Virus record (IMG/VR): IMGVR_UViG_3300036985_000797
Span: 1 to 31,936 of that record
Direction: 5' to 3' (one strand)
Origin: a virus
DNA length: 31,936 nt
Below are positions 8,902 through 31,213 of the stretch, piece after piece (the first letter of the stretch is position 1; each line of letters opens with the position of its first letter). The position numbers and the translations under genes were made by a program. Under the pieces are notes generated by a model that was not told the DNA's origin, searched no databases, and saw only the letters and a program-made list of their open reading frames with translations.

Positions 8902-8903
8902 GA

Positions 8904-9095
8904 TTAGCCTCCACGACCAACAGAGCGCTGGTTCATTACTTTAGCCATGTTGCGACCATACTTAAGCATGTCGCTGTTTGTCTTGCCACCAGCACGAAGT
9001 TTGGTTGGGGTCTTACCGGGGTGCATGTTTTTCTCATGCTTGCCAACAGCAGACTTAATCATCTTTTTGTCTTGGGCTAAATCTTTCTTGTCCAT
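8904..9095 (-). CDS. small basic phage protein (63 aa)
   Basis: A highly basic protein beginning MDKKDLAQDKKMIKSAVGKHEKNMHPGK and ending VMNQRSVGRGG. The pattern DLAQDKKxIKxAVxKHExxxHPGKxxTKLRxGGKT recurs in environmental podophage structural operons, by recollection. There are two nucleotides between its stop and the next start. A nucleic-acid- or head-associated role is possible given the charge, but nothing proves it. Confidence 0.8.
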   Translation of the reverse strand: MDKKDLAQDKKMIKSAVGKHEKNMHPGKTPTKLRAGGKTNSDMLKYGRNMAKVMNQRSVGRGG

Positions 9096-17071: not shown

Positions 17072-17261
17072 CGGATTTCTCCATTTTTTGCACGAGCTCA
17101 TTAATAATATTTTCTGCTAGGTTGAGACCTCGGATGACCCCACAGACTTGGCGATACTCTTCTATGTGGTCGGCTCTACCCGCCGCTACATAGGCTTCTC
17201 GCTCTTGTTTCAACTTATCAATTTCTTTGGCGACATGCGCCAAAAGTTTGTAGTCGTTCAA
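17064..17261 (-). CDS. small coiled-coil protein (65 aa)
   Basis: A charged helical protein (LLAHVAKEIDKLKQEREAYVAAGRAD, then VCGVIRGLNLAENIINELVQKMEK). It overlaps the portal gene's end by 4 bp and the GroES-like gene's start by 8 bp, so translation of all three is coupled. Small proteins at this position are common in environmental podophages and have no known role. Confidence 0.78.
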   Translation of the reverse strand: MNDYKLLAHVAKEIDKLKQEREAYVAAGRADHIEEYRQVCGVIRGLNLAENIINELVQKMEKSDD

Positions 17262-19756
17262 CGTTGCTCCTTCTTAGGTTTTTGAGATGCTCTTTGTGCA
17301 GACTGAACTGCCATCTGAGCGCGGTGCTTGGCGATATCAGCGCCAATTTTGGTTCCTTCAATAAGCTGTTGCTTTTGAAGTTTGTCTTTTGCAGCGGCTG
17401 CGCTTGCACCAACTTGCATAGCCGCGATTTCTTTTTGCGCCTCAATACGCGCTTCCTCAATCCTAAGTTGGTCAGCTTTAGCCGCTGCATCAACCTGTTG
17501 TTTTTGTGCTTTAAGTTGCAACTCTTGCATCTTGATCTGCAACTCTTGCTGCTGCATTTGAACAAGTGGGTCTTGAGCTTGTTGCTGTGCTTGCTGCTGG
17601 GCAGCTTGCGCCTGAGCTTGTTGCGTCAAACGAACAGAGGCTTGTGCAGATAGTTGTGCAACTTGTGCAGCAACTTCTGGAGCCATATTTTTGTCTTGCT
17701 CTTCTGTTGGCAACAGGAGACCAATACTTGCTTCGACTTCTTTGCGATACGCAAACGCCAAGTGCTCGTTGATGTGAGCCATCATTGCAGCCACGATCGC
17801 CTGACCTTGTGGTGTCTGTTGAATAAGCGCCATAACTTTGGGGTTCTGGAGCATTGAAGTGTGCACAGCAATGTGGGCTTGGTGATCCTGTTCAATGAAC
17901 GCTTTGTTAGGTTTACCAGTCAGAGCGTTCTGGTTCTCTTGCACTGGATCAACAGGTCTCGCATCATCCTCAATAGGAATGAGTTTGGCTGCGTTCTTGA
18001 TGCCCAACACCTCAATCATCTGACGATGCAAGAGTGGCAAGTTGTACAGTTGTGGTGCTGTCTGCGCAAGTTGCAGTGCGGCCTGATACTGAACAATTTT
18101 CTGCGCCATCGTTGCAGCGTTTGGATCGCTCACAGGAATAACTGCGACCATGTCGTAGTCAGTCTTCTTCGCCTTACGTGAACCTTCGATTGGCTCGTAG
18201 TCGTAGTCTTCTGGTGTGTAGTCAGCAATGATCGCCTTGAGTAACTTAAACTCTTGCTTCATGCTGTAGTGCATACGCGCTTGCACTGCGCCCATAACCT
18301 TTAACGTACGCTCAAGAATCGCCAGTGTTGTACCCACGGGTGCTTGCGCACTCATGTCACTGACCTTCATGTCTCCTGCGGACGCAAACTGCCTACCCTC
18401 TTGCACAATGTTCTGGAACAAAGTGTAGAGAACTTGACTGGGTTCCTTGTACGGCAGAGGCAAGATATTGTCTCTAATTGAACCACTGGGTACGTCAACA
18501 TCACGAAACTCTCCCGGTGCAATAGGGGTGTCATCACCCTTGATGCGAAGACCACGTGACTTCAAACCACCGGGGAGATTGCTGAGTGTGCCAGCGTCCA
18601 CCAACTGGCGGATCAGCATCGTCGCTGACTTGGCGTAGCCACCAATCAAGTGAATGAGACCATATCCATAAAAGCCAAACCCCGGAATGTATTGGTAATG
18701 TACAAAGTGCTGGCGCTTGGTGTGGAGTTCATCGCCCTCATACCAATTGCGGCGAATCGCAAGAATCTTAGCTGTCGCTTTCTCAACAGTCACCACGTAT
18801 GGAAGCGCAATACCTGTCTTCTCGCCCTTCTTGTTCTCGTGCTCGTAGCCCTTCAAGTCAAGGTCAACGTGCATCTCAAGCACACGGAACCTATCATCCT
18901 GCAGTGCTGACATGCCCATCTCTTCAGCTTTCTGCTTCTCAATATCATCAAGTTCATACGACGGATCACCTAAGTCCACGTCCATATAGAACCCAGCTTC
19001 TTGCAGCTTGGTAACTTCATTCTCAGTCTTACGCATCACGTGCGTAACCCGCTCGGCACGCTCTAAGTTAGATGCGCCGTATGGCACAACAATATCTTCT
19101 GCGGGGATAAACATTGCAACTTGACGTCCAATGCTTGGGTCGTAGTAAACCTTCTTAAATGCACTACCTGCAAGTGGCAGATTCCACAACAGCTTCTCAT
19201 GCTCTGGGCGATACTCAACCATCACATCAGTCAATTGATAGTTCATGTCCTCTCGCACGCGAGTAGCCGCTTCTTCTTTCTCAGGTGTATCTTTACCCAA
19301 GATTTGCGTCTTCACAGGGCCCGCTGCGGGGAATGTCTCCATGATGCCTTCTGACTGAAATCTCACAACCGACTCAGTCAACATGGGGTGGAACACACCG
19401 CAGGCACCCTGCCATGGTTCCGTACGATCCTCGTACTTCAAACCCAGTAACTTCAAGCCATCTACGTACGTCTGTATCCAGTCTTTGCGATCACCAATAT
19501 CTTTAGTGAAATCGGACACTAACTCGGAGCCTAATGAATCTAACGCACTGGCGTCCATAAACTCTGCAAGATTGGCATCAAACTCTTCGTCTGTATCTTC
19601 CTTGCCGGGTGAGAGTTCAATCTCAATATCACCCATGCCGATACGAACTTCTTCGGGGTCTTCAATCTCAATCTCTAGTGGAGGAGCTGACAAGTCCTCA
19701 TCCTCAATACCTAAAGGGGCTGCGTACAAACCTTTGTCGATAGAACTCGTTGCCAT
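17258..19756 (-). CDS. portal protein (832 aa)
   Basis: A large portal of podovirus type. An acidic N-terminus (about residues 1-60) leads to RKDWIQTYVDGLKLLGLKYEDRTEPWQGACGVFHPMLTESVVRFQSE. The core contains YHYQYIPGFGFYGYGLIHLIGGYAKSATMLIRQLVDAGTLSNLPGG-type elements (actual HFVHYQYIPGFGFYG), with the tunnel-region helix near QAPVGTTLAILERTLKVMGAVQARM. The last ~130 residues are a Gln/Ala-rich coiled coil, consistent with a portal barrel. It forms the dodecameric DNA gate at one capsid vertex and docks terminase and adaptor. It is directly downstream of the large terminase with a 9-bp gap. Confidence 0.92.
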   Translation of the reverse strand: MATSSIDKGLYAAPLGIEDEDLSAPPLEIEIEDPEEVRIGMGDIEIELSPGKEDTDEEFDANLAEFMDASALDSLGSELVSDFTKDIGDRKDWIQTYVDGLKLLGLKYEDRTEPWQGACGVFHPMLTESVVRFQSEGIMETFPAAGPVKTQILGKDTPEKEEAATRVREDMNYQLTDVMVEYRPEHEKLLWNLPLAGSAFKKVYYDPSIGRQVAMFIPAEDIVVPYGASNLERAERVTHVMRKTENEVTKLQEAGFYMDVDLGDPSYELDDIEKQKAEEMGMSALQDDRFRVLEMHVDLDLKGYEHENKKGEKTGIALPYVVTVEKATAKILAIRRNWYEGDELHTKRQHFVHYQYIPGFGFYGYGLIHLIGGYAKSATMLIRQLVDAGTLSNLPGGLKSRGLRIKGDDTPIAPGEFRDVDVPSGSIRDNILPLPYKEPSQVLYTLFQNIVQEGRQFASAGDMKVSDMSAQAPVGTTLAILERTLKVMGAVQARMHYSMKQEFKLLKAIIADYTPEDYDYEPIEGSRKAKKTDYDMVAVIPVSDPNAATMAQKIVQYQAALQLAQTAPQLYNLPLLHRQMIEVLGIKNAAKLIPIEDDARPVDPVQENQNALTGKPNKAFIEQDHQAHIAVHTSMLQNPKVMALIQQTPQGQAIVAAMMAHINEHLAFAYRKEVEASIGLLLPTEEQDKNMAPEVAAQVAQLSAQASVRLTQQAQAQAAQQQAQQQAQDPLVQMQQQELQIKMQELQLKAQKQQVDAAAKADQLRIEEARIEAQKEIAAMQVGASAAAAKDKLQKQQLIEGTKIGADIAKHRAQMAVQSAQRASQKPKKEQR

Positions 19757-22115: not shown

Positions 22116-22197
22116 AATCTGGGGGGTGGGTGTCGGTGTCGGCTAAATCTAACATTTTGTTAGGTCTCTCCCCCTATTTAATTTGTTTATTTATACC

Positions 22198-22225
22198 TTG
22201 CATTGTGTACCACAATATGTATAAT
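22198..22225 (+). promoter_or_regulatory. sigma70-type promoter for plus-strand genes
   Basis: TTGCAT (22198-22203), a 16-bp spacer and TATAAT (22220-22225). It lies about 75 bp upstream of the 22301 gene. The spacer contains a perfect inverted repeat, suggesting repression by a dimeric protein. Confidence 0.65.
22202..22216. promoter_or_regulatory. operator-like inverted repeat inside promoter
   Basis: ATTGTG-TAC-CACAAT, a perfect 6-bp inverted repeat lying between the -35 and -10 boxes. A protein bound here would block RNA polymerase. Its half-site resembles the CACAATG core of the next repeat. Confidence 0.55.
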
Positions 22226-22232
22226 AGATAGC

Positions 22233-22255
22233 ATGCACCGCACAATGTGGTGCAT
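22233..22255. promoter_or_regulatory. second operator-like inverted repeat at transcript start
   Basis: ATGCACC and GGTGCAT arms flank a CACAATGTG-containing centre. It starts 7 bp after the -10 box, at or just after the likely transcription start. It could be a second repressor site or a 5' RNA hairpin. Confidence 0.5.
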
Positions 22256-22300
22256 CCCTAGGAATAGGGTTTCATTAGTGTAATTAGAAAAGGTTAGATC

Positions 22301-22849
22301 ATGACTACAAACGTCATCGTGTCGTCTCCCGCCCTTGACACAGGCATTTTGGCTATCGCTCGCAACGCTCTAGTTGAGGAAGCGGTAAAAACAGGCGGTG
22401 TCATTCAGGCTTATGCCAACGCTCTCTGTGATGTATTTGATCGCAAAGACACCAACGGCAAAACCATTGCAAAGTGGTTTGATCTTGTCGGCAAAGACAA
22501 AAAGGGTGTCAAAGCCGAGCGTGCAATGTTTTGCAATGCAATGATGGACAGGGATTCTAAGTTCATCAAATCAACCGATGCTGACGGCAAACGCAAGCAT
22601 ACCGCTACAGTTGACACATACTGGCAACGTGTCAAAGAAGCATCGGGCTATGTGCCAAATGGCAGGGTGTCAGGCGGTAATGACATCGATAGCAAGACCC
22701 TTGCTGAGTTGAAGACCATGATCAACCGTATCTATAAAGCGGATGAAGACGGCATCGAGTGCAACGCTCAGGACTTTTTGGTCAACCTCAAAGATGTGTT
22801 TGAGGGTATGGGCGGAGACGTGATGGACTTGGGCAAAAACCTCAAGTAA
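22301..22849 (+). CDS. first plus-strand early protein, unknown (182 aa)
   Basis: First gene after the plus-strand promoter; ATG follows GGTTAGATC with only a weak Shine-Dalgarno. The protein is mostly helical and hydrophilic (SPALDTGILAIARNALVEEAVKTGGVIQAYANALCDVF, TYWQRVKEASGYVP, SKTLAELKTMINRIYKADEDG). It ends in an Asp/Gly/Lys-rich tail. I do not recognise a domain. Its promoter-proximal position and high codon regularity suggest an abundant early protein, perhaps nucleic-acid-associated; that is inference. Confidence 0.88.
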   Translation: MTTNVIVSSPALDTGILAIARNALVEEAVKTGGVIQAYANALCDVFDRKDTNGKTIAKWFDLVGKDKKGVKAERAMFCNAMMDRDSKFIKSTDADGKRKHTATVDTYWQRVKEASGYVPNGRVSGGNDIDSKTLAELKTMINRIYKADEDGIECNAQDFLVNLKDVFEGMGGDVMDLGKNLK

Positions 22850-22860
22850 GCGGTAAACCA

Positions 22861-22886
22861 AGAACCTAGGGGAAACCCTAGGTTCT
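22861..22886 (+). terminator. strong hairpin with GAAA loop after first early gene
   Basis: A perfect 11-bp stem AGAACCTAGGG/CCCTAGGTTCT with a GAAA tetraloop, 11 bp past the stop codon. There is no clear T-run behind it, so it may be an RNA-stabilising or processing hairpin rather than a classical terminator. Confidence 0.55.
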
Positions 22887-22898
22887 AACAAAAGTTAG
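22885..22898 (+). repeat. 14-bp repeat copy, CTAACAAAAGTTAG
   Basis: One mismatch to the family consensus CTAACAAATGTTAG. It overlaps the last two bases of the 22861 hairpin and lies 18 bp upstream of the 22917 start. Confidence 0.6.
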
Positions 22899-22916
22899 AT
22901 TTTAAAGGGGAAAATT

Positions 22917-23153
22917 ATGTTTGACGATCGAATTACAGATAAGGAAGAATCGGGTCGGCACATCACTTTGATTTGCTTGAATCACCCTGAACTTGAATGG
23001 TCAACAAAAAACATTGGGTCTTCATTACCCGATGGTCGAATTGGTTTCAGTCGCTCTCTGTTTTTCTTTTCTAGTGGGTCTGAATGTGATTGCAAACCAT
23101 CAATGTTACGTTTACATCCCAAGTATTCAACCCTCGAGTCTGTACCCTCTTAA
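22917..23153 (+). CDS. small Cys-containing early protein (78 aa)
   Basis: The ATG is preceded by AAAGGGGAAAATT, a good Shine-Dalgarno. The sequence has ICLNHPELEWSTKNIG and later ECDCKPSMLRLHPKY. The Cys/His spacing (C..H, then C.C and H) could bind a metal. No known family recognised. It is followed 12 bp later by another small gene. Confidence 0.78.
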   Translation: MFDDRITDKEESGRHITLICLNHPELEWSTKNIGSSLPDGRIGFSRSLFFFSSGSECDCKPSMLRLHPKYSTLESVPS

Positions 23154-23165
23154 TTGGAGAAAATT

Positions 23166-23399
23166 ATGACCTTAGATAAAAATCAAATGATGGTAGTTGC
23201 GACATGGTTCAACGTTTACGAAAACGAAACCCAACCAAGTGCCTACGAATACGAACTAATGACCAAGATTTGCCTGACACTCGGCAACACTTTGGGCGCA
23301 GAAGAAAATTGGCGCAAACATCTTTCAACTTTGGAGTACGAGCGTATCGCAGAAGCCGAATGGAAAGCCGAAGAAGAGGAAGAAGCTCGATCGATGTAA
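23166..23399 (+). CDS. acidic early protein (77 aa)
   Basis: The start is ATG 23166, with TTGGAG about 6 nt upstream; the frame extends to a TTG at 23154 but the RBS favours the ATG. The product is helical and acidic at its end (LEYERIAEAEWKAEEEEEARSM). No known domain. Last gene before a strong terminator. Confidence 0.78.
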   Translation: MTLDKNQMMVVATWFNVYENETQPSAYEYELMTKICLTLGNTLGAEENWRKHLSTLEYERIAEAEWKAEEEEEARSM

Positions 23400-23400
23400 C

Positions 23401-23414
23401 CTAACTTTTGTTAG
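23401..23414 (-). repeat. 14-bp repeat copy, reverse orientation (CTAACTTTTGTTAG)
   Basis: One mismatch to the reverse complement of the consensus. It starts one base after the stop codon of the 23166 gene and just before its terminator. Confidence 0.6.
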
Positions 23415-23418
23415 AACC

Positions 23419-23443
23419 AAGCCCCGCTAGTCGGGGTTTTTTT
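23419..23443 (+). terminator. rho-independent terminator
   Basis: CCCCG-CTAGT-CGGGG followed by seven T, with extra A/T pairs at the base of the stem. It ends the short three-gene early operon. Confidence 0.9.
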
Positions 23444-23453
23444 GCGTCTGATG

Positions 23454-23467
23454 CTAACTAATGTTAG
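23454..23467 (+). repeat. 14-bp repeat copy, CTAACTAATGTTAG
   Basis: One mismatch to consensus; flanking G and C extend the inverted repeat to 16 bp (23453-23468). It lies just after the terminator in the non-coding block, with no gene start. Confidence 0.65.
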
Positions 23468-23512
23468 CGTACCCATAATCCACTGTCTATAAAAACAGTC
23501 CCGAGGTTTTTT

Positions 23513-23546
23513 CTGCACCAGTTCTCTGTGCGGGGGTAGTGGCAAG
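23513..23546 (+). repeat. 34-bp direct repeat, copy 1
   Basis: Identical over 34 bases to 23580-23613. It begins CTGCACCAGTTCTCTGTGC, which can form a short stem (GCAC/GTGC), and ends GGGGGTAGTGGCAAG. Confidence 0.9.
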
Positions 23547-23579
23547 GCTCTGCTTAAATTTTGAGCAACGTTACAAAAA

Positions 23580-23613
23580 CTGCACCAGTTCTCTGTGCGG
23601 GGGTAGTGGCAAG
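23580..23613 (+). repeat. 34-bp direct repeat, copy 2
   Basis: Second perfect copy, 67 bp downstream of the first start to start (about six helical turns). It lies 6 bp before a copy of the 14-bp repeat at 23620. Confidence 0.9.
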
Positions 23614-23619
23614 CCTAAT

Positions 23620-23633
23620 CTAACAAATGTTAT
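23620..23633 (+). repeat. 14-bp repeat copy, CTAACAAATGTTAT
   Basis: One mismatch (last base) to consensus, in the non-coding block just after the second 34-bp repeat. No gene starts at its ATG. Confidence 0.65.
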
Positions 23634-23647
23634 GTTTCGTTGTAGCA

Positions 23648-23970
23648 ATGTTACGCCTAATGTTACGTTGCAAATCACGTAAGTTGTTGATTCTAAAGCA
23701 ATGTTATATGTTACGTTTTTTTCGAAATGAGTGTGGCAGTTCACAGAGGCAAAGCTTCTCGCCAAGTGCAAATCGTACTTCAATATATTCTAGGAAAGCC
23801 ACACACACTATTCTTCAAAAAATATAACTTTATAACATAACCCATTTTTTCGCTTCTAACCCCTTGATTTCATTGAGTTTTATAATGTTATATGTCAAAA
23901 CTTTTCGACGTAACATTCCACAACATTACCCCAAAAAACGTAACAACTCATGCCCATAAAAACGTAACAG
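23648..23970. repeat. TGTTACG / CGTAACA heptamer cluster
   Basis: Three direct ATGTTACG copies (23648, 23660, 23708) and three inverted CGTAACA copies (23909, 23939, 23963) flank an AT-rich centre. This resembles paired initiator or repressor binding sites around a melting region; function is inference. Confidence 0.5.
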
Positions 23971-23987
23971 AAGCATCGCCCCATTAC

Positions 23988-24016
23988 TTGACTTATCTGT
24001 AACTTTGTGGTATAAT
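23988..24016 (+). promoter_or_regulatory. strong extended -10 sigma70 promoter
   Basis: TTGACT, 17-bp spacer, TATAAT (24011-24016), with TGG just before the -10 box as in extended -10 promoters. It reads into the small-gene array starting at 24099. Confidence 0.85.
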
Positions 24017-24075
24017 TAAGTATGGGTTGGGGATGTTGTTTTTATAACATTAGGTTTGCCCCCAACCTTGCAAAC

Positions 24076-24089
24076 CTAACAAATGTTAG
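24076..24089 (+). repeat. 14-bp repeat, exact consensus
   Basis: Exact CTAACAAATGTTAG, 60 bp after the promoter's -10 box and 9 bp upstream of the 24099 gene. Its ATG (24083) opens a different frame of about 43 codons that I do not consider a gene. Confidence 0.9.
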
Positions 24090-24098
24090 AAGGGTTAG

Positions 24099-24320
24099 AT
24101 GATGACTATTCGTTGGACAACTATTCGTGTGGGCTTACGCACCACCGCAACAGGCGCGAAGTTGGCGCTATTCAAAGCCTCCATGCTCGACATGGACATG
24201 CTCAAAACCGATGACGATGTTATCGACTACGCACGCAGAAGCATCCGAAGCTCTTGGGGCAACCGCGAGTTGTTGCTTAACTGCATCGACAACAACGACT
24301 ACTCAATCGAAAGGGGCTAA
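24099..24320 (+). CDS. small early protein, unknown (73 aa)
   Basis: Starts MMTIRWTTIRVGLRTTATGAKLALFKASMLDMDMLK; the second ATG at 24102 has better spacing from AAGGG. The C-terminal half is helical (DDVIDYARRSIRSSWGNRELLLNCIDNNDY). The stop TAA is inside the next copy of the 14-bp repeat, 3 nt from the next start. No domain recognised. Confidence 0.8.
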   Translation: MMTIRWTTIRVGLRTTATGAKLALFKASMLDMDMLKTDDDVIDYARRSIRSSWGNRELLLNCIDNNDYSIERG

Positions 24321-24330
24321 CAAATGTTAG
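24317..24330 (+). repeat. 14-bp repeat, exact, holding a stop and a start codon
   Basis: Exact consensus. Positions 2-4 are the TAA of the 24099 gene and positions 8-10 the ATG of the 24324 gene. Confidence 0.95.
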
Positions 24331-24554
24331 GAACTGACTGGAAAGAATGTATCGACTGCGGTGACGATGTACCAACCGAAAGGTATCAAGCGTTCTGCAA
24401 GTTCTGCGAACAAGACCGAGAGCGTAGTGCAGGTGAGGAGCGTCTCTCTTGGTGCGTAGTCCAAGAGTATGGCAAGGGTAACTACCAACTTGTTACACCT
24501 GCGAGCGCACGCACAACGCTCAAACAGACTAATCAAAAAGAACTGAGGGGCTGA
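24324..24554 (+). CDS. small zinc-finger protein, DksA/TraR-like finger (76 aa)
   Basis: Begins MLGTDWKECIDCGDDVPTERYQAFCKFCEQDRER. The C-x2-C, 15 residues, C-x2-C arrangement and the surrounding sequence resemble the zinc finger of DksA/TraR proteins, but the coiled-coil that reaches into RNA polymerase is absent. A regulatory or nucleic-acid role is possible. The ATG lies in the 14-bp repeat; AAGGGG precedes it. The C-terminal half (WCVVQEYGKGNYQLVTPASARTTLKQT) has no recognised domain. Confidence 0.82.
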   Translation: MLGTDWKECIDCGDDVPTERYQAFCKFCEQDRERSAGEERLSWCVVQEYGKGNYQLVTPASARTTLKQTNQKELRG

Positions 24555-24556
24555 GC

Positions 24557-24742
24557 ATGAACAAAGAAGTATTGATTGCGGGCAAAACTGTACAAGATGT
24601 TAAGTATGCCGACCCATGGGGCGAGGGCATAACCATTCGGTTCACGGATGGTAGCGAGCTTTATATCTACGAGCGCATGCAAGCGGGCGAGATTATTGTT
24701 TTGTTTAACGGGCAAGAAGTTGCCCATGGGAGGAGTGAGTAA
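24557..24742 (+). CDS. small beta-rich protein (61 aa)
   Basis: MNKEVLIAGKTVQDVKYADPWGEGITIRFTDGSELYIYERMQAGEI; a likely small beta-sheet protein. GAGGGG is 7 nt upstream of the ATG. Its stop overlaps the next gene's ATG by one base (TAATG). Function unknown; the ITIRFTDGSEL strand pattern is seen in several small phage proteins. Confidence 0.78.
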   Translation: MNKEVLIAGKTVQDVKYADPWGEGITIRFTDGSELYIYERMQAGEIIVLFNGQEVAHGRSE

Positions 24743-24912
24743 TGACCGCAAGACCAAGACACGTGAAGGTTGACCGCTTGAGCAGACCAATTCGGCAGAC
24801 CGACTACTTACAAATGTTAGGTGAGGCGATGAAGTTCGCAAGGGTGGAGGAGAGCAAGCCTGTACTCAATGCTAGAGAGTTACCCATACAAACCAAGAGG
24901 GAGGTCAAATGA
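24742..24912 (+). CDS. small basic protein (56 aa)
   Basis: MTARPRHVKVDRLSRPIRQTDYLQMLGEAMKFARVEESK, ending KREVK. It is coupled to the gene before (TAATG) and after (ATGA). The frame contains a copy of the 14-bp repeat at 24807, encoding LQMLG. Function unknown. Confidence 0.7.
   Translation: MTARPRHVKVDRLSRPIRQTDYLQMLGEAMKFARVEESKPVLNARELPIQTKREVK
24807..24820 (+). repeat. 14-bp repeat copy inside a gene, CTTACAAATGTTAG
   Basis: One mismatch (position 3) to consensus, inside the 24742-24912 gene. Its ATG is in the reading frame of that gene (Met at codon 25), so an internal start is possible. Confidence 0.6.
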
Positions 24913-25079
24913 CACCGGAAGAAATCAAGAAGCACTTTGGCAAGGAAGCCTTGGACATGCTTTACGACTGCATATTGGAGAGCCCAGTACATGAGCTTGC
25001 CGATTGGATACTTTCGTACCACGAAGAGAAGGAGATTGCTCAGTGGATAAGCGATTTGAAACAAGACATGGAGGACTAA
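24909..25079 (+). CDS. small acidic helical protein (56 aa)
   Basis: MTPEEIKKHFGKEALDMLYDCILESPVHELADWILSYHEEKEIAQW, ending DLKQDMED. It is predicted helical and acidic. The ATGA overlap with the previous gene and GGGAGG upstream support the start. The stop TAA is embedded in the 14-bp repeat that opens the next gene. Confidence 0.75.
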   Translation: MTPEEIKKHFGKEALDMLYDCILESPVHELADWILSYHEEKEIAQWISDLKQDMED

Positions 25080-25089
25080 CAAATGTTAA
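25076..25089 (+). repeat. 14-bp repeat copy holding a stop and a start codon
   Basis: CTAACAAATGTTAA, one mismatch at the last base. It contains the TAA of the 24909 gene and the ATG of the 25083 gene. Confidence 0.8.
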
Positions 25090-25172
25090 CTAAATGGGAG
25101 AAGCTAGAGCGAGTTCTTTTTGTACTCGGTTTAATTGTAATTGCCCTTGACCTATTCTATTGGAGACCATGA
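25083..25172 (+). CDS. single-span membrane micropeptide (29 aa)
   Basis: MLTKWEKLERVLFVLGLIVIALDLFYWRP: a charged start, then a hydrophobic helix of about 14-17 residues. GGAGG lies 8-9 nt upstream of the ATG, and the stop overlaps the next gene's ATG. A membrane or host-modulating peptide is possible; function unknown. Confidence 0.65.
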   Translation: MLTKWEKLERVLFVLGLIVIALDLFYWRP

Positions 25173-25294
25173 TGACGCCAGCAGAGTTCTATTTTATGGT
25201 TGCGCAGATATTCCTAGCGCGGTCATTGACTCCGTTCACTGCGCTATTGTTTGCGGTGATGTGGTTGTGCGTTGCTATCTATAAGGGGTGGTGA
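25169..25294 (+). CDS. small membrane protein (41 aa)
   Basis: Starts MMTPAEFYFMVAQIFLARSLTPFTALLFAVMWLCVAIYKGW; one or two short hydrophobic segments. TTGGAGACC lies upstream, and ATG overlaps the previous stop. Its own TGA overlaps the next ATG (TGATG). Function unknown; it may pair with the 29-aa peptide before it. Confidence 0.65.
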   Translation: MMTPAEFYFMVAQIFLARSLTPFTALLFAVMWLCVAIYKGW

Positions 25295-25536
25295 TGCCGA
25301 GGCGCAAGAAAACTTGGATGCTCTTGCGTGGGTACTCGGGCAGTTTCATTGTGGTTGAGCGTAGGTGGTACGACTACGTGGGCATAGCTAGACAACGAGG
25401 CGATCGCAAGCAATGGTGGATAGTTGCCGAGAGTGACGACCATGGGGCTATGCAAGCAATGGCAGGGCTGAGTGGTAAATACAGAAAGATGGAGGTGAAC
25501 CATGAACAAGATGGGGTTGTTACAAGACGAGAGTGA
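25294..25536 (+). CDS. small basic protein (80 aa)
   Basis: Starts at ATG 25294 (TGATG coupling with the previous gene, AAGGGGTGG upstream). The sequence MPRRKKTWMLLRGYSGSFIVVERRWYDYVGIARQRGDRKQWW has beta strands with many Trp/Tyr/Arg. No recognised family. The frame also opens 6 nt earlier at GTG. Confidence 0.72.
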   Translation: MPRRKKTWMLLRGYSGSFIVVERRWYDYVGIARQRGDRKQWWIVAESDDHGAMQAMAGLSGKYRKMEVNHEQDGVVTRRE

Positions 25537-25720
25537 GGGGTACGAGCCCCAACGATTGAGCCGATGGTTCGCTAGCCGACTGGATGCTAGAGAAGTGGTA
25601 CGAAATAATTTTAGAAAGGAACTAACAAATGTTAGAAGCAAGCATGAAGATGAAACTGTTCTACCCCATACGACCATGGGAGAACGAGCCCGACCATGCG
25701 GAGTGGACTCAGGAAGTTAG
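25502..25720 (+). CDS. possible small overlapping gene (72 aa), doubtful
   Basis: ATG 25502 has GAGGTGAACC upstream. It fills the gap of about 90 bp between two better genes, but overlaps the earlier one by 35 bp and the next by 92 bp. The first 40 residues (MNKMGLLQDESEGYEPQRLSRWFASRLDAREVVRNN) look protein-like and the end does not. It may be a real short gene or the remnant of a frameshifted one. Confidence 0.35.
   Translation: MNKMGLLQDESEGYEPQRLSRWFASRLDAREVVRNNFRKELTNVRSKHEDETVLPHTTMGERARPCGVDSGS
25622..25635 (+). repeat. 14-bp repeat, exact, at gene start
   Basis: Exact consensus. Its ATG (25629) opens the 159-aa gene; AAAGGAA precedes it at Shine-Dalgarno distance. Confidence 0.95.
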
Positions 25721-26108
25721 CGGGTACAAGTGCCGTATCGTGCGCAATGAAATCACAGGCGTCTTGCTTGGTTACGTGGGCATACCCAAAGGGCATAGGT
25801 TCTGGGGCATGGGCTATGGCGGGGATGCTGATGCTGAGCTAAGCGACATAAGTTACCACGTGCATGGAGGCTTGACTTACTCTGACAAGGGTGACGATGA
25901 CTATTGGTACTTTGGTTTTGATACCAACCACATGGATGACTTTGCCCCGAAGATGATTGAATTATTGCTTGAACGTAAGCACGATGTTGGGACTTTGACC
26001 GACTGCGCCAAGTACAAAACATGGGAGTATGTCGAAGACCAAATCTATTGGTTAGGCAAACGACTGTGGCAGTACAACGAGTACCACAAGGAGGGTGGTG
26101 ATGAGTGA
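25629..26108 (+). CDS. conserved phage protein with HVHGGLTYS motif (159 aa)
   Basis: Contains GVLLGYVGIPKGHRFWGMGYG, YHVHGGLTYSDKG and DYWYFGFDTNHMDDFAPKM, a pattern I know from phage and plasmid proteins of unknown function. The conserved His and Asp residues (HVHGG, DTNHMDD) could bind a metal. The rest is helical (EDQIYWLGKRLWQYNEY). The start lies in the 14-bp repeat; a second Met six codons later is possible. The stop overlaps the next ATG by 8 bp. Confidence 0.85.
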   Translation: MLEASMKMKLFYPIRPWENEPDHAEWTQEVSGYKCRIVRNEITGVLLGYVGIPKGHRFWGMGYGGDADAELSDISYHVHGGLTYSDKGDDDYWYFGFDTNHMDDFAPKMIELLLERKHDVGTLTDCAKYKTWEYVEDQIYWLGKRLWQYNEYHKEGGDE

Positions 26109-26307
26109 CACCTATTACTTATGCCATGTGCCTATGCATGGGTGGAATATTATTTTGCCCCAAAAGGACTACAAGTACATGCGTCACCACGAGGAAAGGT
26201 TGAACGTGCCTGACCCCAAGAATGAACTAGTGCTACTGGCACAGGGTACGAAGCGAGAGATGATACTGTATTACAAATTAGCAGGAGAACTAACAAATGT
26301 TAGCTAG
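26101..26307 (+). CDS. small protein, unknown (68 aa)
   Basis: MSDTYYLCHVPMHGWNIILPQKDYKYMRHHEERLNVPDPK, then VLLAQGTKREMILYYKL; GGAGGGTGGTG lies upstream. Its last codons read through the 14-bp repeat in another frame (LTNVS), overlapping the next gene by 11 bp. No known family. Confidence 0.75.
   Translation: MSDTYYLCHVPMHGWNIILPQKDYKYMRHHEERLNVPDPKNELVLLAQGTKREMILYYKLAGELTNVS
26290..26303 (+). repeat. 14-bp repeat, exact, at gene start
   Basis: Exact consensus. It encodes the end of the 26101 gene in one frame, and its ATG (26297) opens the 53-aa gene in another. AGGAG precedes it. Confidence 0.95.
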
Positions 26308-26458
26308 ATACTACGTGACAGGGTGGAGTGGAAGGTTCAGCATGTGGGTTGCCGAGAGCCTCGAAGCGAAGAGTAAGGCAGTAGCGAAGGAGAGATTCCT
26401 AAGCAAGTACCCGACTCTGAAGAAGATTAAATTGTACAAACTAAGGGGAGAAGCATGA
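26297..26458 (+). CDS. small basic protein (53 aa)
   Basis: MLARYYVTGWSGRFSMWVAESLEAKSKAVAKERFLSKYP, ending in a Lys-rich helix (LKKIKLYKLRGEA). The pattern of short strand-helix with basic end suggests RNA or DNA contact, but no family is recognised. The start is in the 14-bp repeat; the stop overlaps the next start (ATGA). Confidence 0.75.
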   Translation: MLARYYVTGWSGRFSMWVAESLEAKSKAVAKERFLSKYPTLKKIKLYKLRGEA

Positions 26459-26778
26459 GTAAGGATAACGTAACTGGAAAAGACAAAGAGTTCTACGAGA
26501 TAGGTAAGAGAATGTTTGATCGAATTAAACCGCTCAAGCCGATCAAGCCGTATTTTGACACCATCGAAGCCGACATTGAGTTGATGTGGCAAGTTAACAG
26601 CGCAGACATTGAAGCGTTGGAAGACGCAAAGTTTACGTTAACTGCGATTAGGGAAGCAGAAGCAGGGGTGTACGACAAGATCATTGATGAGTCATTGGCA
26701 TTGATAAACAAAGCACTAGGCATGAGTTATGCCGATGCAATGGAAAGAGTTATGGACAGAGCAAGGGGGAGCAAATGA
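26455..26778 (+). CDS. helical protein, unknown (107 aa)
   Basis: MSKDNVTGKDKEFYEIGKRMFDRIKPLKPIKPYFDTIEADIELMWQVNSADIEALEDAKF; all helical, mixed charge. AAGGGGAGAAGC precedes the ATG. Overlaps the next gene by 4 bp (ATGA). No family recognised. Confidence 0.8.
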   Translation: MSKDNVTGKDKEFYEIGKRMFDRIKPLKPIKPYFDTIEADIELMWQVNSADIEALEDAKFTLTAIREAEAGVYDKIIDESLALINKALGMSYADAMERVMDRARGSK

Positions 26779-26957
26779 CAAGTGACAAAGTTTATAAACT
26801 GATCGAGGACAACGGACTAACTTTGCATGGGGACATTGAACACTTTGCCGAGTTGGTTGCACGAGCCGAGCGTGAGGCGGTTCTTGATTTGATTGACGGC
26901 TACGCAAAGAACAATACTGACTTAGCTGAAGCCATCCGAGCAAGGGGAGAAATGTAA
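26775..26957 (+). CDS. conserved small phage protein (60 aa)
   Basis: VYKLIEDNGLTLHGDIEHFAELVARAEREAVLDLIDGYAKN is a layout frequent in small phage proteins (IxxxGLxLxGDIExFAxLVxxAEREA), with no known role. AAGGGGGAGC precedes the ATG. It is the last gene before a new promoter. Confidence 0.8.
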   Translation: MTSDKVYKLIEDNGLTLHGDIEHFAELVARAEREAVLDLIDGYAKNNTDLAEAIRARGEM

Positions 26958-26977
26958 CGAAACATACCACGAGAAAC

Positions 26978-27006
26978 TTGACATACCCATTTAAATGTGG
27001 TATAAT
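26978..27006 (+). promoter_or_regulatory. perfect-consensus sigma70 promoter for MoxR/vWA region
   Basis: TTGACA, 17-bp spacer, TATAAT (27001-27006), plus an extended -10 TGG. This should be a very strong promoter. A 125-bp leader follows before the ATPase gene. Confidence 0.92.
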
Positions 27007-27089
27007 ATAAGTTACTTTGGATAATTGTGTCCATAGTAGCGTAGGTGTAGGTGTAAAAAAGTGCAGAGTTAATTTGCAAAACATCAACA

Positions 27090-27103
27090 CTAACAAATGT
27101 TAG
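27090..27103 (+). repeat. 14-bp repeat, exact, in mRNA leader
   Basis: Exact consensus, 84 bp after the -10 box and 27 bp before the ATPase ATG. Its ATG starts a seven-codon frame (MLELSAY, stop at 27118-27120). Confidence 0.95.
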
Positions 27104-27130
27104 AACTATCAGCGTATTAGAAAGATCATC

Positions 27131-28195
27131 ATGGCAGAAATCAATTTCGGTAAATCAATTACCCTCAAGCAAGCGGCAAATCTTATCCGCACAAACCCAA
27201 CGACTCGGTTCTTGTTGCAAGGCGAGCCCGGCATCGGCAAGTCATCCCTACTAGAGAATATCGCAAGCGATCTAGGCTTTGAGTATGCCTATATTGACGT
27301 ACCCAATATGGACTTGGGTGACATCGCAATGCCTGTGATCGACCACGATACCAAGACCACAAGGTATTACCCCAACGCACGTTTCCGTATCCATGAGCAG
27401 AAACCTTTGGTCATCATGCTCGATGAGTTCACGAAGGGTGCTGACCCAGTGAAGAACATGCTTCACCCTATGCTTGAGAAGGCAAACCCACGACTCGGTG
27501 ACATACCCCTCACCGCCAATACCATAGTATTCTTGACGGGTAATCTGACAACCGATGGCGTAGGCGACTCCCTCAAAGCGCATAGCCGTAACCGCTTAGT
27601 CCCAGTAACTATTGCCAAGCCCGATGCCGAGCAGTGGATTGAGTGGGCTATTGGTAAGGGACTCGAAGCTGAGGTGATTGCATGGGTGAATCGTTTCCCT
27701 CACGTACTCGCAAGCTATACCGATGCGGCACAAGGTGACAACCCATACATCTACAACCCACGCAAGTCTCAGCATGCGTTCGTATCACCACGCTCGTTGG
27801 AGACAGCATCGAACATTGTCCGGACTCGCAAAGAGAACGACCCTGATTCGGTGATTGCCGCTTTGACCGGTGCGATTGGTGAATCGGGTGCGCGTGATAT
27901 GCAAGCGTACATTGAGTTCTCTGACCAACTGCCTACTTGGGAGGCGACGATCAAAGAGCCAAAGACTACGACTGTACCCACAAGCCCCGGTGCATGTGCC
28001 ATTGTGGTGTTCGGTGCTATCGCTCGCATTACGAAAGAAACCATTGCCCCATTCATGGAGTACTTGGGTCGATTCGATGCCGAGTGGCAAGCCGTATTCG
28101 CAATCAACATTGCCAAGAACCCTGCGAAGCAGAGTATCGCTTTCTCAAGCAGTGCGTTCAAGGACTGGGTTGTTAAGAACCAAGACCTACTCTAA
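27131..28195 (+). CDS. MoxR-like AAA+ ATPase (354 aa)
   Basis: Walker A GEPGIGKS (residues 31-38), Walker B VIMLDEF (94-100), sensor 1 TGN (136-138), an arginine-finger candidate in HSRNRL (153-155) and sensor 2 VSPRSLE (218-224). The spacing and the DVPNMDLGDIAMPVID segment fit the MoxR/CobS-type AAA+ clade. These ATPases act with vWA-domain partners to remodel or activate target proteins or insert metals. A vWA gene lies two genes downstream. The Shine-Dalgarno is weak (AGAAAG). The stop lies in the next 14-bp repeat. Confidence 0.92.
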   Translation: MAEINFGKSITLKQAANLIRTNPTTRFLLQGEPGIGKSSLLENIASDLGFEYAYIDVPNMDLGDIAMPVIDHDTKTTRYYPNARFRIHEQKPLVIMLDEFTKGADPVKNMLHPMLEKANPRLGDIPLTANTIVFLTGNLTTDGVGDSLKAHSRNRLVPVTIAKPDAEQWIEWAIGKGLEAEVIAWVNRFPHVLASYTDAAQGDNPYIYNPRKSQHAFVSPRSLETASNIVRTRKENDPDSVIAALTGAIGESGARDMQAYIEFSDQLPTWEATIKEPKTTTVPTSPGACAIVVFGAIARITKETIAPFMEYLGRFDAEWQAVFAINIAKNPAKQSIAFSSSAFKDWVVKNQDLL

Positions 28196-28205
28196 CAAAT
28201 GTTAG
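28192..28205 (+). repeat. 14-bp repeat, exact, holding a stop and a start codon
   Basis: Exact consensus. TAA at positions 2-4 ends the ATPase gene and ATG at 8-10 starts the 28199 gene. No strong Shine-Dalgarno lies upstream, suggesting coupled re-initiation. Confidence 0.95.
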
Positions 28206-28420
28206 GAATGAACGGCACAAGTGCAACCGACTTCAGGCGGTACATAGTTAGGTGGGTAACTGAACATGGTGAACACACTAACTGGAATCTGCAAGTGGTC
28301 GGGTACTGTGTATACGACACAAGGGATTGCATATCTTTGTTTGAGCATGAGGACAAACATGTATGCGAGAAAGTTTTACAAATGATATTGGAAGGTTTAG
28401 ATCATGGGATACAGAAGTAA
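28199..28420 (+). CDS. small protein, unknown (73 aa)
   Basis: MLGMNGTSATDFRRYIVRWVTEHGEHTNWNLQVVGYCVYDTRDCISLFEHEDKHVCEKVLQMI; small alpha/beta protein. It starts in the 14-bp repeat, directly after the ATPase stop; the Met at codon 4 is an alternative start. The next gene begins inside its last codons (17-bp overlap). No family recognised. Confidence 0.75.
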   Translation: MLGMNGTSATDFRRYIVRWVTEHGEHTNWNLQVVGYCVYDTRDCISLFEHEDKHVCEKVLQMILEGLDHGIQK

Positions 28421-28778
28421 TGTGATGGCGGTGTTCTACACCTACGACCCTATCGAGTATCCGTCAATCAAGTTGTTCATTGACGAGCATGTACCTGAGT
28501 GGTGTAGGGGTGACGAGTATATGACTACGTTCACAGGCAGTAACAACTTGCAGGGGATTAAGTTCGACTTGCAAGATGTGAAGTGGTACGAGTCATACCC
28601 CGATGTGCGAGCGTTTGAGGAAGCGTTGAAGAAGTTCGAGAAGTTAGCCGATGAAGGCAGTAAATGGAATTGGGAGTTCGTGCGTATAGGAGAGGAGGTA
28701 GAAGACGTAGAGCAGAAGCGTAGCTACAACGCAGACCCTCTACTGTATTTAAGTAGAAGTATTGAGTGTGATTTTTAA
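28404..28778 (+). CDS. conserved phage protein starting MGYRSNVMA (124 aa)
   Basis: The MGYRSxVMA start is familiar from small phage proteins of unknown function. The rest is alpha/beta with an acidic middle (VRAFEEALKKFEKLADEGSKWNWEFVRIGEEVEDVEQ). GGAAGGTTTAGATC precedes the ATG. It lies between the ATPase and its likely vWA partner. Confidence 0.82.
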   Translation: MGYRSNVMAVFYTYDPIEYPSIKLFIDEHVPEWCRGDEYMTTFTGSNNLQGIKFDLQDVKWYESYPDVRAFEEALKKFEKLADEGSKWNWEFVRIGEEVEDVEQKRSYNADPLLYLSRSIECDF

Positions 28779-28788
28779 ACAACGAAAG

Positions 28789-28802
28789 GTAACAAATGTT
28801 AG
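28789..28802 (+). repeat. 14-bp repeat copy at vWA gene start, GTAACAAATGTTAG
   Basis: One mismatch (first base) to consensus. Its ATG (28796) opens the vWA/metallopeptidase gene; GAAAGG precedes it. Confidence 0.9.
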
Positions 28803-30061
28803 AAGAACGTAAGGTACAGAAGGCGAAGATTACATTGATGCGTGACCCGAGGTTTGCCCTTTGGTCTGGCATCTTGATGGTTGGTCGTACGAGTGTAGTG
28901 GATAACATCCCAACTGCATGCACCAATGGGCGTGACGAGAAGTATGGTCGCAAGTTCGTGGCTATGCTCAAAGAGCCTGAGTTGAATTTCGTGGTACTCC
29001 ATGAGAATCTACACAAGGCTTTCCGTCACCTGACTACATGGCGTAAGTTACATGACGAGAACCACTCGCTGGCAAATGCGGCTTGTGACTATGTGATTAA
29101 CCTTAAGCTCAAAGACCTCGATCCTAGCGAGCGTGTCATTGCGATGCCACGTTGGGCAGATGGTGAGTTGAAGGGTAAGCCGATGGGCTTGGTTGACGAG
29201 AAGTATCGTGGACTCAATGCCAAGCAAGTGTTCGATCTACTCAAAGATGAGCAGAAGGGCGGGGGCGGCGGAGGCGGTGACGACGAAGGCGACGGCGCAG
29301 GAAAGGGTTCCGGTGGTACAGGTACGAGCCAAGGTCAAGGCAATGGCGGAGGGTTCGATGACCACGATTGGGATGGTGCGAAGGAGATGACCGAGGAGGA
29401 GAAGAAGGTTCTCGAGCGTGAGATCGATCAGGCTATTCGCCAAGGTGTAATGGCGCATCAGAAAATAGCGGGAACTGGTGGTGGTGATCTCGATCGGGAC
29501 TTGCTTGAGTTGCTCGAACCAAAGGTCGACTGGCGTGAAATGTTGCGTGAGTTCGTGAAGTCTACGTGTAGCGCAAAAGATACATCGTCATGGCGTAGGG
29601 TGAATCGTAGGTTCTTGTCTATGGGTACGTACATGCCTAGCTTGATCGGTGAGAAGGTTGGTCACATGGTTATTGCCGTAGACACATCGGGTTCGGTTGG
29701 GCAAGAAGAGTTGTCGGGCTTCCTAACAGAAGTTAAGGGTATCGCAGAAGAAGTAAAGCCTAGCCAAGTGGACTTGATCTATTGGGATAGCCGAGTAGCC
29801 GGACACGAAGAGTACACCGAAGGTATGGTGGGCGACATTATCAATTCCACTAAGCCTAGGGGCGGTGGAGGTACGTCACCCTCTTGTGTATCAGAGTATC
29901 TGAAAGAGAAACGTATCGTGCCTGAGTGCGTCATCATGCTCACCGATGGGTATGTTGGTAGCGATTGGGGCAGGGATTGGACTGCGCCTGTACTGTGGGC
30001 GATCGTAGGAGGAAACGATTGTGTTGCAGACAATGGCAAAACGATTCTTGTCAAGGATTAA
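28796..30061 (+). CDS. vWA protein with N-terminal HExxH metallopeptidase-like motif (421 aa)
   Basis: The N-terminal domain has VLHENLHKAFRH, an HExxH zinc-protease signature (HENLH, residues 69-73), as in DUF2201-type putative metallopeptidases. A Gly/Asp-rich linker (about 155-190) follows. The C-terminal von Willebrand A domain has the MIDAS elements DTSGS (296-300), a Thr in GGGGTSP (360) and LTDGYVG (D384). Proteins of this build accompany MoxR-like ATPases. It probably serves as the partner that selects targets. Whether the protease motif is active cannot be told. The start is in the 14-bp repeat. Confidence 0.92.
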   Translation: MLEERKVQKAKITLMRDPRFALWSGILMVGRTSVVDNIPTACTNGRDEKYGRKFVAMLKEPELNFVVLHENLHKAFRHLTTWRKLHDENHSLANAACDYVINLKLKDLDPSERVIAMPRWADGELKGKPMGLVDEKYRGLNAKQVFDLLKDEQKGGGGGGGDDEGDGAGKGSGGTGTSQGQGNGGGFDDHDWDGAKEMTEEEKKVLEREIDQAIRQGVMAHQKIAGTGGGDLDRDLLELLEPKVDWREMLREFVKSTCSAKDTSSWRRVNRRFLSMGTYMPSLIGEKVGHMVIAVDTSGSVGQEELSGFLTEVKGIAEEVKPSQVDLIYWDSRVAGHEEYTEGMVGDIINSTKPRGGGGTSPSCVSEYLKEKRIVPECVIMLTDGYVGSDWGRDWTAPVLWAIVGGNDCVADNGKTILVKD

Positions 30062-30074
30062 ACGTAGGTTATTT

Positions 30075-30088
30075 ATAACAAATGTTAG
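30075..30088 (+). repeat. 14-bp repeat copy, ATAACAAATGTTAG
   Basis: One mismatch (first base) to consensus. Its ATG opens a seven-codon frame (MLGGIRW, stop at 30103-30105) that overlaps the start of the 30099 gene. Confidence 0.8.
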
Positions 30089-30098
30089 GAGGTATCAG

Positions 30099-30350
30099 AT
30101 GGTAGTAGTCGATATAGGTTATCGCAAGCTCGTGATGACCAAAGAGAAAGCAATGCTCTTGGTCGAGTGCCTTGAGAGTGCGGAAGTATACGAAGAGAAG
30201 TGGTGGAGTGATGATGTGCGTAAAGAGAAAGGAATGGATAGCACTTACACCTACCACGTGTATCCGAATGAAGCCCACTTCAGTATGAAGATTGTTAGCG
30301 ATTCACATTTTCAAATGGCTAGATTAGCCGGTAAACCACAGGGGAATTAA
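30099..30350 (+). CDS. small protein, unknown (83 aa)
   Basis: The start at ATG 30099 is preceded by TAGGAGG, the best Shine-Dalgarno in the region; a longer frame to 30021 would overlap the vWA gene. MVVVDIGYRKLVMTKEKAMLLVECLESAEVYEEKWW; small alpha/beta protein. The Gly-Gly of AGGAGG partly overlaps the 14-bp repeat. No family recognised. Confidence 0.8.
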   Translation: MVVVDIGYRKLVMTKEKAMLLVECLESAEVYEEKWWSDDVRKEKGMDSTYTYHVYPNEAHFSMKIVSDSHFQMARLAGKPQGN

Positions 30351-30351
30351 A

Positions 30352-31200
30352 ATGAGTATTAGTGCATCAGCAGTATTAGTAGAGTTGAACATCAGCGTTT
30401 GGCCTGCCGCAAAGATTGATCGTGAAATCACGAGCCAAGTCAATGCAAGCGCATCAGCACACAAAGATGCGTCACAGACCAAGAAGAATCTGTTTGCGGG
30501 TACAAGCCTACGAGCAGACATTGAGAAGTTTGCGGCCCGAGTACGTCTCTATAACAACCAACACACCTTACCTTGGGCAGACAAGGGTGAGCGCATGTTG
30601 CCGACCAAGTTGTTCATGGATTACAAGCAGACCATGAATGGCTACGAGCGTACGTTCAACATGTTGTGCGATAACTTCTTTGATGAGTACGAGCGACTGG
30701 TTGAGGAAGCCAAGATTAACTTGGGTTCTATGTACAAAGCAGAGGACTACCCTGACCTAACAGAAGTTAGGAAGAAGTTCAGCTTTAGACGTAGCGTGAA
30801 GCCTTTGCCCGAGGCTGGTGACTTTCGCTTGGACATTCCCGCGCATGACTTAGCGGAGATGCGATCGGCATACGAGACTCAGTATTCGGAGAAGTTGGCC
30901 GAAGCAATGCGTACACCATGGGAGCGCCTGCACGAAGTTCTCTTGGGTATGTCCAAGAAGTTGGAAGACTCAGGTGACGGGAAGAAGCGTTATCACGACT
31001 CATTGATTAGCAACCCATTGGAGTTGTGTGAGTTGTTGACGAAGCTGAACGTGACTAACGACCCCAAGTTAGAGGATGCACGTAGGCAAGTAGAACTAGC
31101 CATGCTCGGAGCTGACATTGAAGAGGTCAAAGAGGATGCGTTGGTTCGTGAGAATCTAAAGTCCAAGGTCGATGCTATTCTTGGTAAGTTCGAGTGGTAA
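30352..31200 (+). CDS. helical protein, possibly DUF3150-like (282 aa)
   Basis: A long, helical, charged protein: VLVELNISVWPAAKIDREITSQVNASASAHKDASQTKKNLF, then LRADIEKFAARVRLYNNQHTLPWADKGERMLPTKLFMDYKQTM. This layout distantly recalls DUF3150 proteins, which in some mobile elements lie beside CobS/MoxR-like ATPases and CobT-like vWA proteins. If right, it is the third part of the same module. Its frame contains a weaker copy of the repeat (CTAACAGAAGTTAG, 30757). The start is one base after the preceding stop. Confidence 0.82.
   Translation: MSISASAVLVELNISVWPAAKIDREITSQVNASASAHKDASQTKKNLFAGTSLRADIEKFAARVRLYNNQHTLPWADKGERMLPTKLFMDYKQTMNGYERTFNMLCDNFFDEYERLVEEAKINLGSMYKAEDYPDLTEVRKKFSFRRSVKPLPEAGDFRLDIPAHDLAEMRSAYETQYSEKLAEAMRTPWERLHEVLLGMSKKLEDSGDGKKRYHDSLISNPLELCELLTKLNVTNDPKLEDARRQVELAMLGADIEEVKEDALVRENLKSKVDAILGKFEW
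30757..30770 (+). repeat. degenerate repeat copy in a gene, CTAACAGAAGTTAG
   Basis: Two mismatches to consensus, but keeps perfect 5-bp arms (CTAAC/GTTAG). It lies inside the 30352-31200 gene with no start codon. Confidence 0.4.
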
Positions 31201-31213
31201 TAACATTTGTTAG
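31200..31213 (-). repeat. 14-bp repeat copy, reverse orientation
   Basis: ATAACATTTGTTAG, one mismatch to the reverse complement of the consensus. It starts at the last base of the 30352 gene's stop, and its end (TTAG) leads into the AGGAG Shine-Dalgarno of the next gene. Confidence 0.75.

Follow-up and report, generated by a model that had tools for sequence, protein, structure and literature searches.

A palindromic site array in the early genes of metagenomic phages and a putative regulator that varies with its spacing

A 14-bp inverted repeat recurs through the early half of a 31.9-kb viral fragment (IMG/VR record IMGVR_UViG_3300036985_000797, whose whole length is hereafter called the window), and raises the questions of whether it acts as DNA or as RNA and of which protein, if any, would recognize it. 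The answer proposed here is that the repeats probably form an operator array bound by the product of the first gene of the early operon (22301-22849), which would serve as an autoregulated, stoperator-like brake on early transcription. The window carries terminase, portal and head genes on its minus-strand half and an AAA ATPase, a DUF2201/VWA metallopeptidase and small genes on its plus-strand half, the gene models being those of a simple script that for some genes places the start later than the original prediction did. A rescan recovered the six exact and nine single-mismatch copies which that prediction had listed (Table 1), all of them in the early half, the structural half containing just two matches with three mismatches; its looser copies at 22149 (perfect arms) and 30757 (weak) were found too. 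With up to three mismatches allowed, 35 matches occur, compared with 3.0 ± 1.8 (maximum 7) in 100 shuffles, so that the recurrence is above chance, as had been claimed. Six ATG codons lying within copies (24324, 25083, 25629, 26297, 28199 and 28796) are plausible starts, the relatives retaining the beginnings MLET, MLEAS, ML-RYYVTGW and MLEER at motif ATGs; that at 25083 heads merely a 29-codon open reading frame. A further weak copy at 29723, inside the gene 28796-30061, may be due to chance.

The same arms are present in eighty IMG/VR records that carry the ATPase. These relatives are all metagenomic records. Each genome has about ten to twenty copies spread through the early genes, and the centre between CTAACA and TGTTAG measures 1, 2 or 3 bp across relatives, being almost always uniform within a genome. 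Arm variants are genome-wide as well (CTGACA in relatives L079 and L080, GTAACA in L081 and ATAACA in L071). At the start of the DUF2201 gene the relatives form a series, ggagCTAACAATGTTAG, ggagCTAACAAATGTTAG and gggGTAACAAAATGTTAG, in which the spacing differs while both arms and the start codon are preserved; the upstream arm is thus kept together with the Met-Leu codons, and both arms are kept also at sites lacking a start codon. In ten relatives of 43-66 kb the sites of the genome's own spacing lie nearly all in or beside the early arm, and two 30-kb stretches from N4-like phages with distant relatives of the ATPase, used as a control, contained no sites with centres of 1-3 bp. A structural or replicative role, as nucleoid-like binding sites, a centromere or origin iterons, would suit the site-rich non-coding stretch with other repeats at 23415-24075. 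However, the sites are dispersed across 7-20 kb, following promoters and gene junctions, and no ParB family match was obtained in 14 genomes, which makes such a role highly improbable. Three genomes (L198, L240 and L227) mix 1-bp and 2-bp sites, and were possibly caught in the middle of a switch of spacing.

Two readings of the palindrome had been offered: arms suited to a dimeric DNA-binding protein and, at the RNA level, a CUAAC-AAAU-GUUAG hairpin that would hide the start codon and control translation. The ATG of start-codon sites is always in the sense orientation and the 14-mer has a folding energy of -2.4 kcal/mol, both as a hairpin would require. Nevertheless, the predicted hairpins are weak (-1.1 to -2.7 kcal/mol), the 1-bp-centre form reaching just -1.1 kcal/mol, and a start codon is present in only 188 of 528 de-duplicated sites, about a third, many sites overlapping stop codons. 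The remaining 340 have no strand preference, their centres being oriented about equally either way (AAT 76 and ATT 92 for 1-bp centres; AAAT 53 and ATTT 43 for 2-bp centres). Single mismatches would break the stem in 160 of 169 cases, only 9 being G-U; the outermost base pair takes 137 of the 169, and C>A changes are equal between the arms, which yields a half-site [CAGt]TAACA. Sites are also found upstream of promoters and within genes: 31 lie inside the coding sequence of early genes, where a synonymous-codon shuffle predicts 0.68 (a 45-fold excess), and none inside that of late genes over 355 kb, where 0.45 is expected. The codons for ASNIVRS in the L161 ATPase gene contain a site, whereas relative L168 encodes the identical residues without one. 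Selection acts, then, at the level of double-stranded DNA. Judged from sequence, the motif is a double-stranded DNA palindrome, VTAACA-N-TGTTAB, because non-start centres face both ways, mismatches break the pairing and sites occur within genes. The hairpin model was rejected on the orientation, mismatch, in-gene and folding data, and a translational control element of this kind is extremely improbable. The original prediction was therefore upheld in part: the palindromic family of the early half, its fit to a dimeric protein and its likeness to stoperators stood, and the RNA hairpin did not. The overlap with start codons is probably an accommodation to short gene junctions, since the arrangement TAA-CAA-ATG would let a site fit a tight junction by overlapping the stop and start codons there. 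A translational role is unnecessary: where the site is missing or has shifted, genes still start normally, as the orthologous genes of L077 and L080 do.

The identity of the probable binder is suggested by the spacing of the sites. In 94 of 96 records the proposed regulator gene opens the early arm, with a divergent gene before it, and sites are present in all 129 of the 129 distinct records that have it; a site lies at most 300 bp upstream of the gene in 91 of 105 relatives, and at most 200 bp past its stop codon in 84 of 105. Its product exists as two types, diverged but homologous (hhalign probability 97.4, E 1.2e-11), type A occurring mostly with 2-bp centres and type B mostly with 1-bp centres. 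When spacing was predicted from the nearest neighbour of each protein, relatives above 0.90 ATPase similarity being excluded at the strictest cut-off, the regulator was correct in 44 of 47 cases, at every relatedness cut-off. At the strictest one the other markers reached 43% (ATPase), 61% (DUF2201), 52% (a 282-aa gene), 35% (ribbon-helix-helix protein, RHH), 57% (zinc finger) and 21% (DUF3310). On the ATPase tree there are 12 spacing changes and 15 changes of gene type; in eight independent pairs differing in spacing, the gene type was concordant in 6.3 on average and opposite in 0 (median p 0.03).

These data bear on the alternative that the operators are real and bound by another phage protein, be it the 82-aa Cro-like helix-turn-helix (HTH) protein, the 68-aa RHH-like protein, the HTH-DUF3310 protein or the zinc-finger protein. 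Each of these early proteins is conserved and several probably have a DNA-binding fold; their predicted DNA-contact segments are conserved, as are the arms. They were rejected as binders because the RHH, DUF3310 and zinc-finger proteins predict spacing poorly once near relatives are removed, and because the RHH protein is almost identical across phages with 1-, 2- and 3-bp centres; the neighbours of the 82-aa protein mostly differ in spacing (10 genomes only). Binding by one of these proteins is accordingly improbable. In relative L101 the RHH-like (Arc/CopG-like, by eye) and DUF3310 proteins, the latter with an N-terminal HTH-like part, are encoded by adjoining conserved genes (17743-17949 and 17168-17746, respectively) and are further candidate regulators; the 82-aa HTH protein is encoded near the primase gene (8797-9045) and has an almost invariant recognition helix, SRMTIYNWFKG.

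The association of the proposed regulator with spacing can be followed in close relatives. L161 is type B with 1-bp centres and L168 type A with 2-bp centres; most of the early region that they share aligns at about 77-92%, and the regulator gene has been replaced alongside a one-bp change of centre at the same site positions. In several orthologous pairs of sites the flanking sequence can be aligned and the centres are unequal by one bp, for example GACAGCAACTAAC-AATGTTAGGCAACAAAGGAG in comparison with GACAGCAACTAACAAATGTTAGGTAACAAAGGAG. Recombination of whole blocks as the sole cause of the switch was rejected for this pair, given that at several sites the centre alone differs between aligned flanks. 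A set made up purely of CTGACA sites (2-bp centres) occurs in L079 and L080 alone. These two carry a type A gene, whereas their ATPase shares 91% identity with the one in CTAACA phages with 1-bp centres. Among the aligned type A proteins theirs alone lacks Y107, changed to I in the predicted recognition helix. L234 mixes CTGACA and CTAACA and retains Y107, and therefore this residue is not the whole story. In seven records dominated by 1-bp centres the type A proteins have 15 residues between two predicted helices, against 16 or more elsewhere (the linker of L228 was counted by eye); this one-residue difference matching a 1-bp difference in spacing is suggestive only, because the seven records fall in few lineages.

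The regulator protein matched no Pfam or PHROG family and had no relative among the annotated phages of the phage collection, and type A had none across 84,980 bacterial and archaeal genomes. AlphaFold2 (AF2) models are mostly helical, with a predicted local distance difference test score of 80.6 and a predicted template modelling score of 0.60 for type A (all-helical) and of 75.1 and 0.46 for type B; none gave a fold match in the PDB below E 0.001, and the type A profile gave no match to PDB sequences below E 0.3. The family thus appears previously undescribed and without annotation, and its members are likely dimeric switches of early transcription, because the spacing of the sites changes in step with the protein.

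The position of the sites relative to promoters, the latter taken as consensus matches and often TGTGGTATAAT, indicates how such a switch could work. The -10 ends of promoters peak 56-65 bp upstream of site centres, with a second peak 65-79 bp downstream. A flanking site accompanies 271 promoters: 179 have it downstream only, 65 upstream only and 27 on both sides, in the last case typically near -62 and +57 relative to the -10 end. The sites avoid the promoter core and are located in transcribed DNA, junctions and genes, a placement that fits a roadblock or looping repressor and not a classic promoter-overlapping operator. Activation, or DNA looping between sites about 119 bp apart on either side of a promoter, would suit the two-sided promoters and those with an upstream site only; it is rather unlikely in view of the 179 promoters with a downstream site only and of the many sites distant from recognised promoters, at junctions or in genes. 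According to the preferred mechanism, a roadblock, the regulator would occupy each site as a symmetric dimer, with one of its two subunits on either VTAACA half. Such dimers would sit beside the regulator's own promoter, near other early promoters (about 50 bp past them and in some cases about 70 bp before them), at gene junctions and in gene interiors. The bound dimers would restrain the host RNA polymerase at many points, and accumulation of the regulator would throttle early transcription, as a distributed, autoregulated brake. The sequences themselves show the palindrome, the selection at the level of double-stranded DNA, the confinement to the early half and the co-variation of spacing with this gene; direct binding, dimerisation, repression and roadblock are inferred.

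Several observations weigh against this proposal. The regulator gene adjoins sites, and some of the correlation could be due to linkage, the compared markers being six others. L047 and other type A phages have 1-bp centres, L064 and L315 are type B with 2-bp centres, L319 has an L315-like insertion and yet 1-bp centres, and genomes such as L198 and L240 are mixed in spacing. The effect of binding could be activation or looping instead of a roadblock, and the HTH of the regulator is read from a monomer model that has no fold match.

Table 1. Palindromic sites, early promoters and proposed regulator gene in the window (one mismatch, relative to the 14-bp motif)
Feature	Position	Strand	Remarks
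Palindromic site CTAACATTTTGTTAG, 15 bp	22149..22163		perfect arms, 3-bp centre; precedes the promoter of the first early gene
First early-operon gene, 182 aa, proposed regulator type A	22301..22849	+	covaries with site spacing
Site CTAACAAAAGTTAG	22885..22898		one mismatch; immediately past the regulator gene
Site CTAACTTTTGTTAG	23401..23414		reversed copy, one mismatch on the - strand; between gene end and terminator-like hairpin with T-run
Site CTAACTAATGTTAG	23454..23467		one mismatch; non-coding stretch
Site CTAACAAATGTTAT	23620..23633		one mismatch; non-coding stretch; L161 and L168 have a comparably placed site
Sigma70-like early promoter TTGACT-17-TATAAT	23988..24016	+	consensus match
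Exact site	24076..24089		centre about 67 bp past the end of the -10 element
Exact site	24317..24330		TAA is the stop of the upstream gene, ATG the start of the 24324-24554 gene
Site CTTACAAATGTTAG	24807..24820		one mismatch; within small gene 24742-24912
Site CTAACAAATGTTAA	25076..25089		one mismatch; TAA is the stop of the upstream 24909 gene, ATG the start of the 29-codon frame
Exact site	25622..25635		ATG is the start of the 25629-26108 gene
Exact site	26290..26303		ATG is the start of the 26297-26458 gene
Sigma70-like early promoter TTGACA-17-TATAAT	26978..27006	+	consensus match
Exact site	27090..27103		5' leader of the AAA ATPase gene; relatives keep the position
Exact site	28192..28205		TAA is the stop of the upstream ATPase gene, ATG the start of the 28199 gene
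Site GTAACAAATGTTAG	28789..28802		one mismatch; ATG is the start of the DUF2201/VWA gene 28796-30061; relatives have a 1- or 3-bp centre here
Site ATAACAAATGTTAG	30075..30088		one mismatch; gene junction
Weak site CTAACAGAAGTTAG	30757..30770		within gene 30352-31200
Reversed site ATAACATTTGTTAG	31200..31213		one mismatch on the - strand; gene junction

Some features of the window stand apart from the argument. The 22149 site has a 3-bp centre in the window and in near relatives (L014, record G003, at 28311), the other sites of the genome having 2 bp. In the non-coding stretch 23415-24075 the block CTGCACCAGTTCTCTGTGCGGGGGTAGTGGCAAG is duplicated and many words resemble half-sites (GTAACAT, ATGTTACG); L161 and L168 have a similar block. 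The stretch is possibly an origin or a regulatory RNA, and an Rfam search that included it matched no known element. The gene 24324-24554 encodes a 76-aa protein with a Cys4 motif resembling, by eye, a DksA/TraR zinc finger, conserved in 10 of the 11 records compared. For 28796-30061, PHROG 1314 gives the label HNH endonuclease and Pfam a DUF2201 metallopeptidase plus a VWA-like domain; the PHROG label looks wrong.

Among known systems the stoperator array of phage L5 comes closest in behaviour. The cluster A phages L5, Bxb1 and TipsytheTRex have more than 20 short stoperators, dispersed over the genome in short intergenic spaces; their consensus is specific to each genome and follows a phage repressor of about 180 aa. 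These stoperators are asymmetric 13-mers in a single orientation, to which the repressor binds as a monomer through two DNA-binding domains, and their reversal abolishes function (PMC6550527, PMC9283540). The likeness noted in the original prediction extends to the many dispersed sites, the short intergenic spaces and a cognate phage regulator that varies together with the consensus of the sites. By contrast, the sites described here are palindromic, have both centre orientations about equally at non-start positions and are confined to the early arm; the regulator, unlike L5 gp71 or the TipsytheTRex repressor, has no match in PDB sequences, PDB folds or the phage collection; and, unlike in L5-type phages, no signs of lysogeny were found in 14 relatives. 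Integrase, resolvase and ParB families (PF00589, PF00239, PF02195) had no match in these 14, whose records are not proven complete, and together with the lack of type A relatives in bacterial and archaeal genomes this led to the rejection of classic temperate-phage immunity. Cluster K phages carry 11-19 repeats per genome near start codons and only in the non-structural half, the start-associated sequences (SAS) and extended SAS (ESAS), of which the SAS is an asymmetric GGGATAGGAGCCC that contains the Shine-Dalgarno sequence, lies 3-7 bp before the start and is of unknown function (PMC3203893). The resemblance that had been drawn to them holds for confinement to the non-structural half; on the other hand, most sites here are not at start codons, the start lies inside the site instead of downstream, and the constraint is at the double-stranded DNA level. 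In the temperate Bacillus phage SPbeta, the master repressor MrpR, of tyrosine-recombinase fold, recognizes 15-bp sites in promoter regions, a repeated element (SPBRE) in many phage intergenic regions (PMC10516654). One repressor with many sites is common to both systems, whereas PF00589 is unmatched in the relatives and the AF2 model of the regulator matches no fold. As for promoter geometry, the sites that flank promoters without overlap recall palindromic GalR operators, although here most promoters are flanked by a single site and there are many sites without a link to a promoter. In the gal operon of Escherichia coli, GalR operators lie on either side of the promoter, non-overlapping and a little over 110 bp apart. 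Searches of the literature for lytic phages with palindromic arrays in the early region, and for co-evolution of spacing, found nothing.

The chances seem about even that these phages, apparently virulent, contain a new two-type regulator family acting as a stoperator-like brake that has been repeatedly re-tuned, by a swap of the regulator followed by 1-bp indels in the centres of many sites, with a one-residue change between two helices matching a 1-bp change in spacing. The analysis assigns a likely function to a protein family without annotation. It suggests, too, that transcription is blocked at distributed points not only in temperate phages, from which such roadblocks are known, but also in phages without signs of lysogeny. 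Moreover, the natural series of matched regulator and operator sets with centres of 1, 2 and 3 bp in close relatives would make the evolution of the specificity of a whole regulon directly testable.

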